From Steroidobacter gossypii (lineage in GTDB: Bacteria > Pseudomonadota > Gammaproteobacteria > Steroidobacterales > Steroidobacteraceae), in the NCBI RefSeq assembly GCF_016801985.1, contig NZ_JAEVLS010000009.1, positions 1 to 64,000 on the forward strand: a DNA stretch of 64,000 nt, in the 5' to 3' direction. Below the pieces are notes generated by a model. The model made no database searches, was not told the DNA's origin, and saw only the letters and a program-made list of their open reading frames with translations. How positions within the stretch are numbered: position 1 is the stretch's first letter; each line of letters starts with the position of its first letter. Shown here piece after piece: positions 57,247 through 63,269 of the stretch. Both the position numbers and the translations under genes were made by a program.

Positions 57247-57393
57247 CGCAGCGACATCGCCTCGCCGCGATGTCACAAATAATTCAACCGATCTTGTTTC
57301 CCTGCCGGGGCTGAGCGGCCGCCGTAGAGCAGTCCTTATCTGCAGCTGCCCTGATATCGATGCGCCGGGCGCATGGAATGGCGAGGTAGGGAT

Positions 57394-57744
57394 ATGACGA
57401 AAGCCGCGCGAAGTTTGCTTGCCCTGACCTTCAGCGGCCTGATTGCTCCGCCGGCCACGTCCGCCGCCGAGCGCTACACACTGCACATCGATCGTCAGCC
57501 CGTCGTACGCACGCTCGCCGAACTTTCCAAACAAACACGCCTGCAGATCGTGGGTATGTTCCGAAATGAGGGCGGTGCGGCAAGCCGGCTGACAGGGCCA
57601 CTCACCGGCGAATTCACCATCGAGTGCGCTTTGCAAATGTTGCTCGCCGACAGCGATCTCACATTCGTTCGCGTCAATGCCAACACGATTGCGGTCATGG
57701 CAAAGCCCGCGGAGCCGGAGCCGGGCCAACGCGATCGATCGTGA
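57394..57744 (+). CDS. Secreted STN-domain protein without receptor barrel
   Basis: 116 residues from ATG 57394 with GAGGTAGGG upstream. A signal peptide (KAARSLLALTFSGLIAPPATSAA) is followed by a single STN domain (YTLHIDRQPVVRTLAELSKQ, then TGEFTIECALQMLLADSDLT). STN domains usually begin TonB receptors or secretins and contact FecR. Here it stands alone, about 415 bp upstream of the ECF sigma gene, and may be a free signalling domain (inference). Confidence 0.8.
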   Translation: MTKAARSLLALTFSGLIAPPATSAAERYTLHIDRQPVVRTLAELSKQTRLQIVGMFRNEGGAASRLTGPLTGEFTIECALQMLLADSDLTFVRVNANTIAVMAKPAEPEPGQRDRS

Positions 57745-58158
57745 AATATCGTTTACGGTCTCTCATATATATGAGAACACACCATTGACCGATCCACGTT
57801 ATCTATCGCGATGCAGCATGTAATGTGTTGATTGTGATAATCCGTGATTAACGCGATGTGGTGTATGGAGCGCGTGGGTTGCTCCTGGCGATGTGATGTC
57901 CGCGAAGTGTCATCTCATTCCGTGGTGCGCGCGCTCACATTGCATCGCTTTGATGTGAAATCAACCGATGCGTCATCCATCGTCTGAGGTTTTTATTGCC
58001 GTTTACGAGTAAGTACCCGGCACATATCAGATTTTCAGGGGTGACCTTGGCCGCTTCACCGGTCATTCTCTGCATGGAGCCCTTTGCCGCGATCGTCAGA
58101 TAAAACGTCGACGCATGGCAAAGGTGGTCGAACAAGGCACGTTGCTTCAGGAACGCTC
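57745..58158. other. AT-richer intergenic region with a 16-bp palindrome
   Basis: 414 bp without a supported gene, clearly AT-richer to the eye than its neighbours. It holds the perfect palindrome TCTCATATATATGAGA at 57761-57776. It is the likely promoter region of the sigma/FecR/receptor operon. Confidence 0.5.
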
Positions 58159-58794
58159 GTGATCGATCGCCGGGGTTATGGGGAAATCGATGCGTTATCA
58201 CAAACGCCCGGCGATGAGGCGCAGAGTGATGCCGCGTCTTCGGAATCGGACAGTGGCGCTGTCATTGGCGAAGCAGGTGCCGAGCCACGCGACAATCGGA
58301 TCGCGCAGTGGTTTCGGGACTGGCGCAAGCCCGTGAGGCATTGGTTGTCCCGTCGGGCCTCCGTGCCCGCCGCCGAGCTCGACGATCTCGCGCAGGAAGT
58401 CTTCGTGAGGCTGCTTCGCTACAGCGGCAAGACCACGGTCGAGAATCCGCTCGGCTACTTGTTACGCATCGCAAGCAACGTCGCCAGTGAATGGCGCGAG
58501 CGGGCGCGGGTTTCCAAACCGCACGAGCAGGAATGGCTCGACGATCTGCTGATCGAGTCCGAGCAGGAGCCGGAAAACTCCGTCTGCCAGGCACGCACCG
58601 ATGCGAACGTGCAATCCGAAGTCGACAAGCTGCCGTTCCGCCAGCGCCAGGTGCTGCTGCTGAGGGTGAACGAAGGCTTGACGTACAAGCAGATCGCCGA
58701 GCGCATGGAGCTGTCGCCGCGCGCCGTGCTTCGTGATCTGTCTCGGGCCTACAGCCAGCTGCGAATGCGACTGGATCCAGAAGACCTCAAGTGA
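58159..58794 (+). CDS. ECF-type RNA polymerase sigma factor
   Basis: 211 residues from GTG 58159 (a TTG at 58084 is possible but less likely). Sigma region 2 shows LDDLAQEVFVRLLRYSGK, and region 4 LPFRQRQVLLLRVNEGLTYK followed by RMELSPRAVLRDLSRAYS. It is of the FecI-like kind that works with FecR and a TonB receptor. The stop is 24 bp before the fecR start. It is expected to activate the receptor gene. Confidence 0.9.
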   Translation: MIDRRGYGEIDALSQTPGDEAQSDAASSESDSGAVIGEAGAEPRDNRIAQWFRDWRKPVRHWLSRRASVPAAELDDLAQEVFVRLLRYSGKTTVENPLGYLLRIASNVASEWRERARVSKPHEQEWLDDLLIESEQEPENSVCQARTDANVQSEVDKLPFRQRQVLLLRVNEGLTYKQIAERMELSPRAVLRDLSRAYSQLRMRLDPEDLK

Positions 58795-58818
58795 ATGGAT
58801 CCACGCGGGGACGCTCTA

Positions 58819-59895
58819 ATGACAACAGGACATGATCGGATGAGTATCGTGAGTCAGGAAGCCGCATATTGGTTGCTACGATTGAGGGATGACGCCGGCG
58901 CCATGCCGCTCGAGGACCGCCTGGAGTTCGCTCGCTGGATCAAACAGTCTCCAGAGAACGTGCGCGAACTCCTGCTCGCCCATCACATGGACGGCAGGCT
59001 GTCACGTCAGAAATTGTGCGATCAGAATACCAAGATCGACTCCACTGTGGTGCACGCCGACTTCGGCAGAGGCCTCTTTCAGTACGACTATCAGCCCTGT
59101 GCTTCAGTGAGCGACCAGGTGCCGCGGAAGCGGAAGCCGGTGTCCAAGCTGCGGGCATTGTTTGCTCGTGCGGCGATGGTTGCTATGGCGGTGCTGCTCC
59201 TGCTTATGCTTGTCAATCGCACGCCGGAAGGTGTGGTCGAAACAGCGGCCAGCCACCTGCAGCAAATGAGCATCGAGGACGGCAGCAGCATCCAGATGGA
59301 TGCTCGCACTCGATTGAAGGTGGATTTGAAGCCAACCGAAAGAATCGTTCATCTGTATTCCGGGCAGGCGGTGTTCGAGGTCGTCAGCAATCGCAAGCGT
59401 CCGTTTATCGTAAGGACCGAGCTGGTCGACGTCACCGCTGTCGGCACCAAGTTCGGTGTGCGCGTCGACGATTCGGGTGTGACCGCCACCGTGCTGGAAG
59501 GTGTCGTCGAGGTCACGTCCCGCGATCCTCGCGACGGCGACATCGTCCGCCTGTATCCGGGAGAGAAGCTGCACATGCCGAAGTCGCGGGCGCCCCACTT
59601 GCTGTCCGAACGCTCGAAGGAGAGAGTGGACGCGCAACGTGAGTTCGAGTGGACGACCGGCTGGATCACTTTGCGGGATGTCGAGGTGGGCGAGATTGTC
59701 AGGGAGTTCAACCGCCGCCATAAAGTGCAGGTGAGCATCGGTGACCCAGACATCGCAGCGCGCACCATCGACTACGGGCGCATGAAGGTGACTTCGGTCG
59801 AGAGTTTCGAAGCGGTGATGAAGAGCCAACCGGGCATTCAGGTGACCAACGAAGGTTCGGTGATTACGCTGACGCAGCCCGGGCGCTCGGAATAA
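58819..59895 (+). CDS. FecR-family anti-sigma/sensor protein
   Basis: 358 residues from ATG 58819, which has GGGGA seven bases upstream; ATG 58795 is an alternative. N-terminal cytoplasmic DUF4880-like region (EAAYWLLRLRDDAG, then FARWIKQSPENVREL), a transmembrane helix (AAMVAMAVLLLLMLVN) and a periplasmic FecR domain (AVFEVVSNRKRPFIV, TAVGTKFGVRV). The C-terminus has a further STN-like segment. It passes the receptor signal to the sigma factor. Confidence 0.9.
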   Translation: MTTGHDRMSIVSQEAAYWLLRLRDDAGAMPLEDRLEFARWIKQSPENVRELLLAHHMDGRLSRQKLCDQNTKIDSTVVHADFGRGLFQYDYQPCASVSDQVPRKRKPVSKLRALFARAAMVAMAVLLLLMLVNRTPEGVVETAASHLQQMSIEDGSSIQMDARTRLKVDLKPTERIVHLYSGQAVFEVVSNRKRPFIVRTELVDVTAVGTKFGVRVDDSGVTATVLEGVVEVTSRDPRDGDIVRLYPGEKLHMPKSRAPHLLSERSKERVDAQREFEWTTGWITLRDVEVGEIVREFNRRHKVQVSIGDPDIAARTIDYGRMKVTSVESFEAVMKSQPGIQVTNEGSVITLTQPGRSE

Positions 59896-59901
59896 GCGGC
59901 A

Positions 59902-62652
59902 GTGACTTACAGGATGTGGCGAATGTCGGCGGCGGTGCTGGTCGCGCTGCTCTGCGCGTCCGGCATCTCTGTTGCCGACGAAGCCACACCGCCACAGATC
60001 TACACGTTCAACATCCCTCGCAGCTCGCTGGTCTCCGCGATCCAACAATTCTCCGAACAGACTGGCATCCAGGTCACCGCCAACTTCGGTTCTCCCGAAG
60101 AACAGGAGCAACCGGTTGAGGAGATCCTCGGCGACTTCGCCGCTCGGGACGCGCTGCAACGCTTGCTCGCCGGCACCAAGTTGACTGCCAAATGGGAGGG
60201 CAATGGCACGGTGCACATCTATCCTCGGAGCTCACCTCGTTCGTGGGATGGCGTGAATCGCGTTGTGGTCACCGGCAGCCGGCTCACGTGGGACGTGGAG
60301 GGGCCGGAGCCGGTGAGGGTCTATGACCGGGATGAAATCGATCGATATGGGGTGTCCAGCTTGCCAGGCCTTGCTGGTTACCTTACTCAGCAACCCTATT
60401 CTTTTGGCGAATGGGGTCAACAAAGTGGAGCACAACACTTTCAGATGCGGGGGCTGGGTGTGGACACGACACTGGTGCTCATCAACGGACGTCGAGCGCC
60501 GCCCAGTGCGACGAGTGTCACTCTGAATGCCTTTGACCTGAATACAATTCCACTCACAGCGGTTGACCGCATTGAAATCATGTCGGATTCCGCCTCGGCG
60601 ATTTATGGAGCTGACGCGATCGGTGGGGTTGTGAATATCATCATGAAAAAGGATGTTCCGACGCCGGAAGTGTTTTTTCATTACGGAGACGCAGAGGGAG
60701 GCGCGCGGGAGCGCCGTGCGGCAACCTCCTTTGGTATTTCGGGCGAGCGATTCAAGTCCGCATTCACGATCGACTACCTCGAGCGCGGAATGCTCGTAGG
60801 CGCCGAGCGAGAGCTATGGAATAACCAGGACTTCACGCGATTTGGCGGAAGGGATTGGCGGGTGACTACTGCGAATCCGGGCAATGTATATTCGCTCACG
60901 GGCGACCTCCTGGGAACAGATGGAGAGCTTAGTCTCGATAGCTCTCGTCAGACCGTGTCCATTTTGCCGGACTTGGAGCGCCTGTCAGTGTTCGGCTCGG
61001 GGGAATCTTCGCTGGGCGACGGGGCGTCCTTATTTGGAGAGACTCTTATTGTCAGGAGTGATGTTGTTGCCCAAGGGCCTTCACCATTTATCTCGCAGCT
61101 GGTCGTCCCCGTGGACAACCCATACAATCCTTTTGGCCAGCCGGTCGTCGTGGATTACAAGCTCGCCGGAATGAAACCCCTATCCTATGTAACGGAATCA
61201 GAGCTCGAGAGATTCGTGCTTGGGGTGCGTGGTGGATTGCGGAGTTGGGATTGGGAGCTGGTTCTTACAAATAGCAATGAGCGTGTTGCCTCGGCGATCT
61301 ACAACGAGGTGGATGTCACGAGGATTCAAGCCGCACTGGATTCGACTGACCCGCAGTCAGCCCTCAATCCTTTCAGAGTCGGTCCTGCTGGAAGTGTCGC
61401 CTTGTTGTCTTCGCTGGTGGGCGATCCTCAAGTCGCCGGTTCTCACTCGCGTGCAGTGCAAGTAGGAGGATTCTTGCGGGGTCAATTGTTCCGGACGCCC
61501 GGCGGTGTGAGCGAATTCGTCGTTGGAGGAGAGTGGCGGCGAGACTCGGTAGAGCTCGATGACAGCATCCATCTTGTGGAGCAGACGGACGAGATCGCCT
61601 CTGGATTCGTTGAGCTCAAGGTGCCACTGGTTGAAGGGGTATCGATCAAAGCAGCCTTGCGAGGAGACTACTACGATAACGCTATCGACTCGGTGAACCC
61701 GCAGTATGGCCTCGTTTGGCAACCGGCACAGGATTTGTTGGTGCGAGCCGCGTACGGCACGAGCTTCCGACCCCCATCGGCGCTCGAGCTGTTTTCACCA
61801 GGAACAGAGTTTTTTCGTCGACCTGTTGCTGATCCACGGCGCGGTGACTCCGTATCTCTCGTCGGTTGGGGCGTAGGCGGCAATCCGGACCTCGAGAATG
61901 TATCAGCTCGTTCTTTCACCAGCGGGGTCGTATATCGGCCGAATCGGCGGCCGGGTGTACAGTTGGGCGCTCACTACTGGCGAGTGGTGATGGACGATCG
62001 CATCGTCACTCCCAGGACTTCGGGGATTGAGAAGCTCGAAGAATTGGGCCGCGTGACGCGGTTTGCGCCGACTGAAGCCGATGCATTGGCGGGCTGGCCC
62101 GGAGCGATCCAGTCCGTCGACGGTTCCCTCGTGAACTACGGGCGACTGGAGACCAGCGGAGTCGATGTTGATCTGTCGTATCGAACAGCGAGCAAACGGG
62201 GACAACTACAGTTTGCGCTTTCCGCCACGTGGGTGGATGAATATGCCTCTCAGGACCTGGGTCCAGTGCAGCGATCAGATCGAGTGGGCATCGCGAGTTT
62301 GGACGGCACGATTCCAGAATGGCGCTTCGTAGGGTCGCTGATATGGGAAGGAAAAGCTTCGGGTGCATCCACCACAGCGACCTTCACGCCGAGCTATTGG
62401 GATGCTGACGCGAGCGGCGCTCTGAATCGGCGATTACCCTCACGTACGATCATCGATATGCAGGCCTGGGTAGAACCCGGCCGGCTCTACGAGTCAGAAG
62501 CTCTCGATGGATTGAGGCTGACTGTCGGGGCACTGAACTTGTTGAATGAAGCTGTGGACTTCGCCAACGTGGGCGGATCGCTCGGCCACGATATATCGCA
62601 AGGAGATCTAAGGCAGCGGTTCGCGTACTTGCGAATAACGAAGTCCTTCTAG
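59902..62652 (+). CDS. TonB-dependent transducer with STN domain
   Basis: 916 residues from GTG 59902 (ATG 59914 or 59923 are possible). A signal peptide (AAVLVALLCASGISVADEA), an STN signalling domain (YTFNIPRSSLVSAIQQFSEQ), a plug (GVNRVVVTGSRLTW and MRGLGVDTTLVLINGRR) and a beta-barrel ending in FAYLRITKSF with terminal Phe. It is an outer-membrane importer that also signals to FecR. Long size and plug type resemble receptors for peptides or siderophores, but the substrate is not known. Confidence 0.92.
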   Translation: MTYRMWRMSAAVLVALLCASGISVADEATPPQIYTFNIPRSSLVSAIQQFSEQTGIQVTANFGSPEEQEQPVEEILGDFAARDALQRLLAGTKLTAKWEGNGTVHIYPRSSPRSWDGVNRVVVTGSRLTWDVEGPEPVRVYDRDEIDRYGVSSLPGLAGYLTQQPYSFGEWGQQSGAQHFQMRGLGVDTTLVLINGRRAPPSATSVTLNAFDLNTIPLTAVDRIEIMSDSASAIYGADAIGGVVNIIMKKDVPTPEVFFHYGDAEGGARERRAATSFGISGERFKSAFTIDYLERGMLVGAERELWNNQDFTRFGGRDWRVTTANPGNVYSLTGDLLGTDGELSLDSSRQTVSILPDLERLSVFGSGESSLGDGASLFGETLIVRSDVVAQGPSPFISQLVVPVDNPYNPFGQPVVVDYKLAGMKPLSYVTESELERFVLGVRGGLRSWDWELVLTNSNERVASAIYNEVDVTRIQAALDSTDPQSALNPFRVGPAGSVALLSSLVGDPQVAGSHSRAVQVGGFLRGQLFRTPGGVSEFVVGGEWRRDSVELDDSIHLVEQTDEIASGFVELKVPLVEGVSIKAALRGDYYDNAIDSVNPQYGLVWQPAQDLLVRAAYGTSFRPPSALELFSPGTEFFRRPVADPRRGDSVSLVGWGVGGNPDLENVSARSFTSGVVYRPNRRPGVQLGAHYWRVVMDDRIVTPRTSGIEKLEELGRVTRFAPTEADALAGWPGAIQSVDGSLVNYGRLETSGVDVDLSYRTASKRGQLQFALSATWVDEYASQDLGPVQRSDRVGIASLDGTIPEWRFVGSLIWEGKASGASTTATFTPSYWDADASGALNRRLPSRTIIDMQAWVEPGRLYESEALDGLRLTVGALNLLNEAVDFANVGGSLGHDISQGDLRQRFAYLRITKSF

Positions 62653-62714: not shown

Positions 62715-62861
62715 TCAGATGCCGGCATAGGTCCACGAGACGTGGTTGTCCTTGATGTCATGGATCGGATGGGGTTGCTTCGTCTCGACCATCGCATCGC
62801 CCAAATCGATCATTTTCACGCCGTCGTCCTCAACCTCTCTCGCCGCGATATTCTCATTCAT
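62715..62861 (-). CDS. 48-residue peptide with a lasso-precursor-like leader
   Basis: Read directly on the minus strand from ATG 62861 to TGA 62715, with GAGGT seven bases upstream of the start. The product begins MNENIAAREVEDD. The leader end is MIDLGDAMVETK and the tail starts QPHPIHDIKD and ends WTYAGI. In proteobacterial lasso-peptide precursors the leader usually ends LGxAxxET(K/R), with Thr at position -2 before the core. That pattern is kept, but core residue 1 would be Gln rather than the usual Gly, and Asp lies at core positions 7 and 10. It is convergent with the STN-TonB receptor. No cyclase or peptidase genes are in view. It could also be another kind of modified or unmodified peptide. 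Confidence 0.6.
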   Translation of the reverse strand: MNENIAAREVEDDGVKMIDLGDAMVETKQPHPIHDIKDNHVSWTYAGI

Positions 62862-63269
62862 GACGTATACCTCAGAGCGGTTCAGACGTCCTCCTGCCAG
62901 CGGGTAACCTGCGCTTCCTAATGGTTAACGGCAATGCGATTTCCCCTGGGGATGAAAAACGTCGGTTAGGTGATCAGTAAGAGGGGTTAAGTTCAATTCA
63001 TTGTCCGGTCAATGTGAGCAGAGACCGAGAGATCACAAGAACCTTGGTGCTTGGTTCGCCCTTGGTGGTCCGTAGCGGGCCTCATGGAAGAGGTCCGCTG
63101 CGTATCTTGCGAACGGAGCGCCGGAAAAAATGGGGTGCAGCCTCTCAGGGATGACGGGCTGCAAGCTCCGTTGCGGGCGGCCTGAGAATCTTCACGTTTG
63201 TGAGGACCTACCACTCGGTAGGATTTCTGCGGAAACGCCGAGTCTTAAATTCCATCGGCCAGCGGCGGG
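62862..63269. other. Intergenic region upstream of the peptide gene
   Basis: About 400 bp holding the peptide RBS and presumably its promoter. A minus-strand frame at 62993-63214 has no protein-like character. No maturation gene is present here. Confidence 0.4.

Follow-up and report, generated by a model that had tools for sequence, protein, structure and literature searches.

A lasso-type precursor gene apart from its presumed maturation enzymes, facing a TonB-dependent receptor gene in Steroidobacter gossypii

Lasso precursors are usually sought next to their enzymes, and because searches look beside the enzymes, lone lasso precursors are missed. Among other ribosomally made peptides, the prochlorosin lanthipeptides have many unlinked precursors for one enzyme; their chemistry differs from that of lasso peptides, and we know of no receptor pairing in that system.

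Several described lasso systems resemble the one presented here in part. Metanodin, a lasso peptide from an uncultured member of the Steroidobacterales, has Asn as residue 1 and a nine-residue ring established by MS, and its precursor gene was missed by antiSMASH even inside its cluster (PMC12670498). It shares with the present family the bacterial order, an amide residue at position 1 and Thr at -2, but differs in being clustered with B, C and isopeptidase genes and in its nine-residue ring; the words 'orphan' and 'TonB' are absent from the main text of that report (PMC12670498). The isopeptidase-type clusters of astexin and benenodin have genes for a TonB transporter and for sigma and anti-sigma factors next to the precursor gene, as well as a leader ending in LGxA..ET(K/Q), and are similar to the present locus in these respects; however, they keep precursor, B, C and isopeptidase genes together, whereas the precursor studied here has none of these adjoining it (PMC9266682). 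Likewise, caulosegnins I-III are made by one enzyme set from several precursors, with ring sizes of 8 and 9, as in the arrangement proposed below, but those precursors lie in one cluster, while here they are scattered, each facing a receptor gene (PMC13352647). In the literature consulted, mostly non-subscription, we found no account of trans-matured or orphan lasso precursors, of Gln1 or of a natural 10-residue ring.

Here we analyze a gene in a window of 64,000 nucleotides (C31:1-64000; contig C31 is one of 32 in a genome of 7.10 Mb). The gene does encode the precursor of a lasso-type peptide (a knotted ring) and stands apart from its presumed finishing enzymes; it is an ordinary-looking small gene inside an unusual arrangement of a known class.

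The precursor gene and its receptor locus

The orphan precursor gene (62715..62861, minus strand) comprises 48 codons and its ORF translates as MNENIAAREVEDDGVKMIDLGDAMVETKQPHPIHDIKDNHVSWTYAGI, followed by the stop. Residues 1-28 form the leader (ending in MIDLGDAMVETK) and residues 29-48 the proposed core (QPHPIHDIKDNHVSWTYAGI). As the original prediction had it, the gene carries a ribosome-binding site and faces a TonB receptor gene: a GAGG run lies 8 nt ahead of the ATG (CTCTGAGGTATACGTC-ATG), and the convergent receptor gene (59902..62652, plus strand) ends at a stop-to-stop distance of 62 bp. A leave-own-out HMM, built on 23 peptides from other genomes with the own genome's three excluded, recovered the ORF with E=2.9e-11 when run against the window's 1575 six-frame segments; the sole other row had E=7.8. 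A full-length relative with 50% identity is present in Peristeroidobacter soli (E=3e-13, calculated relative to the candidate stretches only). The lasso-like character claimed for the leader stands with respect to the Thr at -2 of the proposed cleavage site, while its similarity to known leaders is weak: the Benenodin model NF033522 gives 18.7 bits (cut-off 33) and the Subterisin model PF24178 17.6 bits (cut-off 27), each over the leader part only. Both scores being under the curated cut-offs, membership in the benenodin or subterisin family was rejected.

The region upstream of the gene (62862..63050, minus strand) contains blocks that are kept in three syntenic relatives (CTTAACCCC and ATTGC/T..GTTAAC.A..AGGAA in a four-sequence alignment). 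The region is likely to be a promoter or operator; a consensus scan upstream of the gene found no sigma-70-type promoter. Comparison with the orthologues in the three relatives gave a whole-gene dN/dS of 0.10-0.35 in five of the six pairs computed, values that are rough because dS exceeds 1 in four of those pairs. The window core has three His where two adjacent Cys are found in each of its three orthologues, and another subgroup of the family has two spaced Cys; judging from these residues, metal binding or disulfide formation by such cores is possible.

The receptor has Plug (64.1 bits) and barrel (92.6 bits) domains, with an STN match of 21.4 bits that is below the cut-off of 28.4. It is preceded on the plus strand by genes for a FecR-type anti-sigma factor or signal transducer (58795..59895; FecR 66.1 bits) and an ECF-type sigma factor (58084..58794; Sigma70_r4_2 51.6 bits, Sigma70_r2 28 bits), so that domain matches are at hand for all three neighbors predicted in the stretch 58084-62652. 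A small free-standing STN-domain ORF (57373-57744; STN 22.3 bits, below the cut-off) lies ahead of the ECF gene and found no tblastn match in the syntenic loci at E 1e-8. The locus recurs in three relatives (genomes G168, G169 and G171) in the order aceE-(aceF)-lpd-ECF-FecR-TonB followed by the convergent peptide gene, again with no enzymes; identities to the window are 71-74% for ECF, 38-46% for FecR and 57-58% for the TonB receptor. ECF and FecR genes that are 77% and 43% identical to those of the window also flank L120 (G174:C214), a lasso cluster whose leader is of another type.

Lasso enzymes and the peptide family

A location of the maturation enzymes outside the window had been named as one possibility, and none is found inside it. 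Above curated cut-offs, the genome encodes four Asn_synthase + Transglut_core3 gene pairs, located at C31 83-86 kb, C22 494-496 kb, C22 756-758 kb and C27 210-213 kb. The C31 cluster (83.3-86.4 kb) is the nearest, the edge of its cyclase gene being 20.4 kb and the start of its B gene 23.1 kb from the window peptide. This pair has its own precursor, MTEVQDEMEIEVLDLGDATVETKQWGLWPQYYDSVFLLGERENG (MTEVQDEMEIEVLDLGDATVETKQ...), whose leader contains the DLGDAxxETKQ of the window peptide and which is 62% identical to the latter over residues 9-29. The precursors of the other three pairs have different leaders (LIELGMVVEETQ, PLELGTVTEETKG, MIKLGKVSEATRT), and the corresponding loci (L022, C22:494-497 kb; L023, C22:755-759 kb; L024, C27:209-219 kb) are further lasso clusters of other leader types; that on C27 includes an S9-family peptidase, likely an isopeptidase, along with STN-TonB, FecR and ECF genes. 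The C31 B protein matches lasso_biosyn_B2 with 61.4 bits (cut-off 33) and PF13471 with 53 bits; its PqqD-type match (NF033530) is 25.6 bits, under the cut-off of 70. The C31 cyclase C matches PF00733 with 86.4 bits and contains SGGLDS, scoring below the cut-offs of the lasso and albusnodin cyclase models (NF033535, 23.7 of 525; NF033561, 83.9 of 300). The cluster also holds genes for an ABC transporter and for a TonB receptor accompanied by FecR and ECF. Using the own C27 S9-family protein as a tblastn query (E<=1e-8), no isopeptidase match was found in L009/L010 (C31 60-100 kb) or in L060, L065 and L071, a search that distant isopeptidases may escape. The C31 cluster contains a tandem repeat of 13 bp in about 12.6 copies (L010 5984-6145), placed between its precursor gene and its B gene.

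Homologues with a conserved leader, by which the original prediction proposed to check the peptide, are present in related strains. Run at E<=0.1 against the 217 genomes of the family, a model made from the own genome's three peptides found 27 matches, distributed over 11 genomes: 3 in the own genome, 5 each in G168 and G169, 4 in G171, 3 in G178, 2 in G174 and five singles. We kept 26 of these, leaving out that of G156 (internal stop); a G179 peptide was found afterwards and is not among the 26. The alignment termed A2 comprises 22 of the 26, without those of G175, G170, G060 and G180, and the start codons of several family peptides were chosen by hand. A wider model matched 10 of 396 genomes at the order level (E<=0.01), nine of them of the window's genus, and 3 of 369 at the class level (E<=0.001), namely the own genome, one of the genus and one other lasso cluster. 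The match in G411, situated within a long frame and apparently due to chance, and G713, a lasso cluster of a different leader type, were rejected as family members. The scan for related loci gave one locus only.

Eleven of the 26 peptides are encoded beside a B gene, two have only a cyclase beside them and 13 are orphans. Two of these 13 are on contigs shorter than 9 kb, where adjoining enzymes may lie beyond the contig ends; for the others, enzymes were looked for by tblastn searches with the own C31 and C27 enzymes. B was also sought by a whole-genome PF13471 scan in the own genome, G168, G169 and G171. In 14 related genomes tested for PF13471, all 10 positive ones have a family peptide, and the four negative ones (G172, G173, G176, G177) have none, albeit in small numbers. 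In the two cyclase-only loci (G171 C7 and G174 C49), cyclase and precursor are intact, but the same contig gives no PF13471 match, so these loci need B in trans, if they are functional at all. G168 and G169 have a peptide of the same kind as these loci without the cyclase, which was either lost or never present there. In another locus (L073, G178:C93, 9739-14263), the cyclase frame that follows the precursor and B looks broken, and the opposite strand encodes a further cyclase of full length.

The cyclase tree sets the clusters with DLGDA-type precursors apart from the five others (support 100/99) and unites the C31 type of five species in one clade (100/100); the B tree agrees with it (99/96 for 12 rows). 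A truncated B (G178 C43) and a broken C (G178 C93) were left out of the trees. G168, G169 and G171 each have a full C31-type cluster about 20 kb from the syntenic locus (B 80-84%, C 63-65% identical). We consider it likely that the window gene encodes a lasso-type RiPP precursor matured in trans by the C31 B and C enzymes, that its product is read by the adjacent receptor, and that one lasso machinery thus serves a number of dispersed precursors, each encoded next to a receptor of its own. The leader peptidase B, with its PqqD-like recognition part, and the Asn-synthase-like cyclase C would recognize the shared leader DLGDAxxET(K/R).

Leader cleavage and ring size

The conserved leader end and the residue that follows it (62775..62810, minus strand; precursor residues 18-29) read I-D-L-G-D-A-M-V-E-T-K + Gln. 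Across the 22 peptides of A2, G21, E26 and T27 are invariant, and D19, L20, D22, A23 and Q29 are conserved in at least 90%. ETK or ETR is present in all 26 peptides, the rows having been cut at that motif. The Gln directly after the leader, already pointed out in the window peptide, recurs in 22 of the 26 (Glu in 2, Cys and Gly in 1 each) and in 13 of the 13 orphans. The proposed macrolactam acceptor is Asp38 (codon 62748..62750, minus strand; core position 10), which is invariant in the 22 rows of A2; counted from the first residue after ET(K/R), the family's Asp occupies position 10 of the core in 20 of the 26 peptides, position 9 in five and position 8 in one. The original prediction had called for a 7-residue ring closed on Asp7, and the window core does have this residue; Asp7 was rejected as the probable acceptor as it is not conserved in the family, and only Asp10 aligns with it.

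With cleavage assumed to occur two residues past Thr, B would cut the window leader after Lys28, and C would close a ring between the alpha-amine of Gln1 and the Asp10 side chain, with the tail then presumably threaded through it. With Thr at -2, as in metanodin, and the Asp at core position 10, the rings would have 10 residues. The predicted [M+2H]2+ of the window core's macrolactam is 1155.574 with Gln retained and 1091.545 without it. Characterized lasso peptides have rings of 7, 8 or 9 residues (PMC13352647; PMC9266682), and engineered fusilassin tolerated rings of 7-10 (PMC13352647). Strings reading 'Gln1' in both papers are Gln14, Gln15 and the like, not residue 1.

These known ring sizes lend themselves to a different cleavage point in the same system, namely one residue further on, behind Gln (Thr at -3). 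Such a cut would give rings of 9 residues in 20 of the 26 peptides, 8 in five and 7 in one, all inside the known range of 7-9. However, it would also place a hypervariable residue at position 1, including Pro in 4 of the 26, whereas the residue that follows ET(K/R) is Gln in 22 of them. Furthermore, in the five clusters with an isopeptidase-like neighbor, a cut after K/R gives ordinary rings of 8-9 residues with Q, E, Q, G and E as residue 1, and metanodin, from the same order, has Thr at -2 and Asn first (PMC12670498). We therefore regard the later cut as the less likely course, a judgment that concerns the cleavage point alone and overlaps with the explanation given above, and prefer Gln1 with moderate confidence.

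Receptor pairing and the proposed signaling system

Matured in trans by the C31 enzymes, the peptide would be exported; the TonB receptor encoded next to it would take it up or sense it, with the signal passed on by FecR and the ECF sigma factor so as to adjust expression of the receptor locus. Each of the 13 orphan genes converges on a TonB receptor gene, with gaps of -57 to +132 bp. These include the second orphan of the own genome, on contig C25, which lies tail-to-tail with a related TonB receptor in which no STN domain was detected. The peptide genes of the C25 type (L031 10014-10070, L059, L069) reach 45-57 bp into the 3' end of the receptor gene, and their products carry long extensions at the C terminus; a FecR gene lies behind the peptide gene of the own genome.

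Plug matches are numerous in these genomes (134 in the own genome, at least 150 in G168, 143 in G169 and at least 150 in G171). A search with the window receptor at E<=1e-60 returned at least 28 loci: 3 in the own genome, 5 in G168, 6 in G169 and at least 14 in G171. All 17 peptide-linked receptors of the four genomes are among the 28 listed, amounting to 3 of 3, 5 of 5, 5 of 6 and 4 of at least 14 receptor loci, respectively; within the own genome's 134 Plug matches, the only strong relatives of the window receptor are the two other peptide-linked receptors. For 16 of 21 pairs, the nearest neighbor is the same by core as by receptor (Mantel test, r=0.76 and p=1e-4), a correlation that indicates linkage rather than recognition, because shared descent alone would give such a result.

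The peptide might be matured by the shared machinery without being a ligand of the adjacent receptor, the linkage having been inherited from an ancestral lasso cluster that carried a TonB gene. Isopeptidase-type lasso clusters indeed carry TonB and sigma/anti-sigma genes (PMC9266682), and 11 of the 28 listed close receptors (10 of the 14 listed in G171 and 1 of 6 in G169) have no detectable peptide within 2.5 kb downstream, where the best HMM match among convergent ORFs had E 0.2. Against this stands the tail-to-tail pairing, kept in 13 of 13 orphans that lack local enzymes, and we judge this alternative unlikely.

Still less probable is that the orphans are left over from clusters whose B and C genes have disappeared, with maturation having ended. 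The cyclase-only loci do suggest enzyme loss or gain there, and the orphan pair G168 C1 / G169 1283k has a dN/dS of 1.04 (2.38 for the core) and is therefore under relaxed or diversifying selection; other peptide pairs have values of 0.22-0.58. Yet the window gene is intact in four species at the low dN/dS given above, with its leader motif, Asp and upstream blocks conserved, and the own genome, G168, G169 and G171 keep 3, 5, 5 and 4 intact family members. A spurious ORF, which its short length and scores below the curated model cut-offs might suggest, is refuted by the leave-own-out HMM match, synteny and selection.

The presence of lasso enzymes elsewhere in the genome, together with the HMM match and a family with a conserved leader, thus leaves the original assignment to the lasso-type precursors right in kind, and maturation in trans with reading by the paired receptor remains our favored explanation. 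Beyond this, at somewhat less than even confidence, we envisage a decentralized system, in which one B/C machinery serves scattered precursors that lie tail-to-tail with their own TonB receptors, often with FecR/ECF genes, new channels arise by duplication of the pair and loss of the enzymes, and the products have Gln1 and natural 10-residue rings. The window peptide itself may act in signaling, carry metal or serve as a weapon directed at kin. If this picture is true, several peptides per genome escape enzyme-anchored searches, and they would make up a family with Gln1 and probably 10-residue rings. The pairing would name a candidate receptor for each peptide, and the purpose that TonB/FecR/ECF-linked lasso peptides have for their producers would become testable in several paired loci of one cell.
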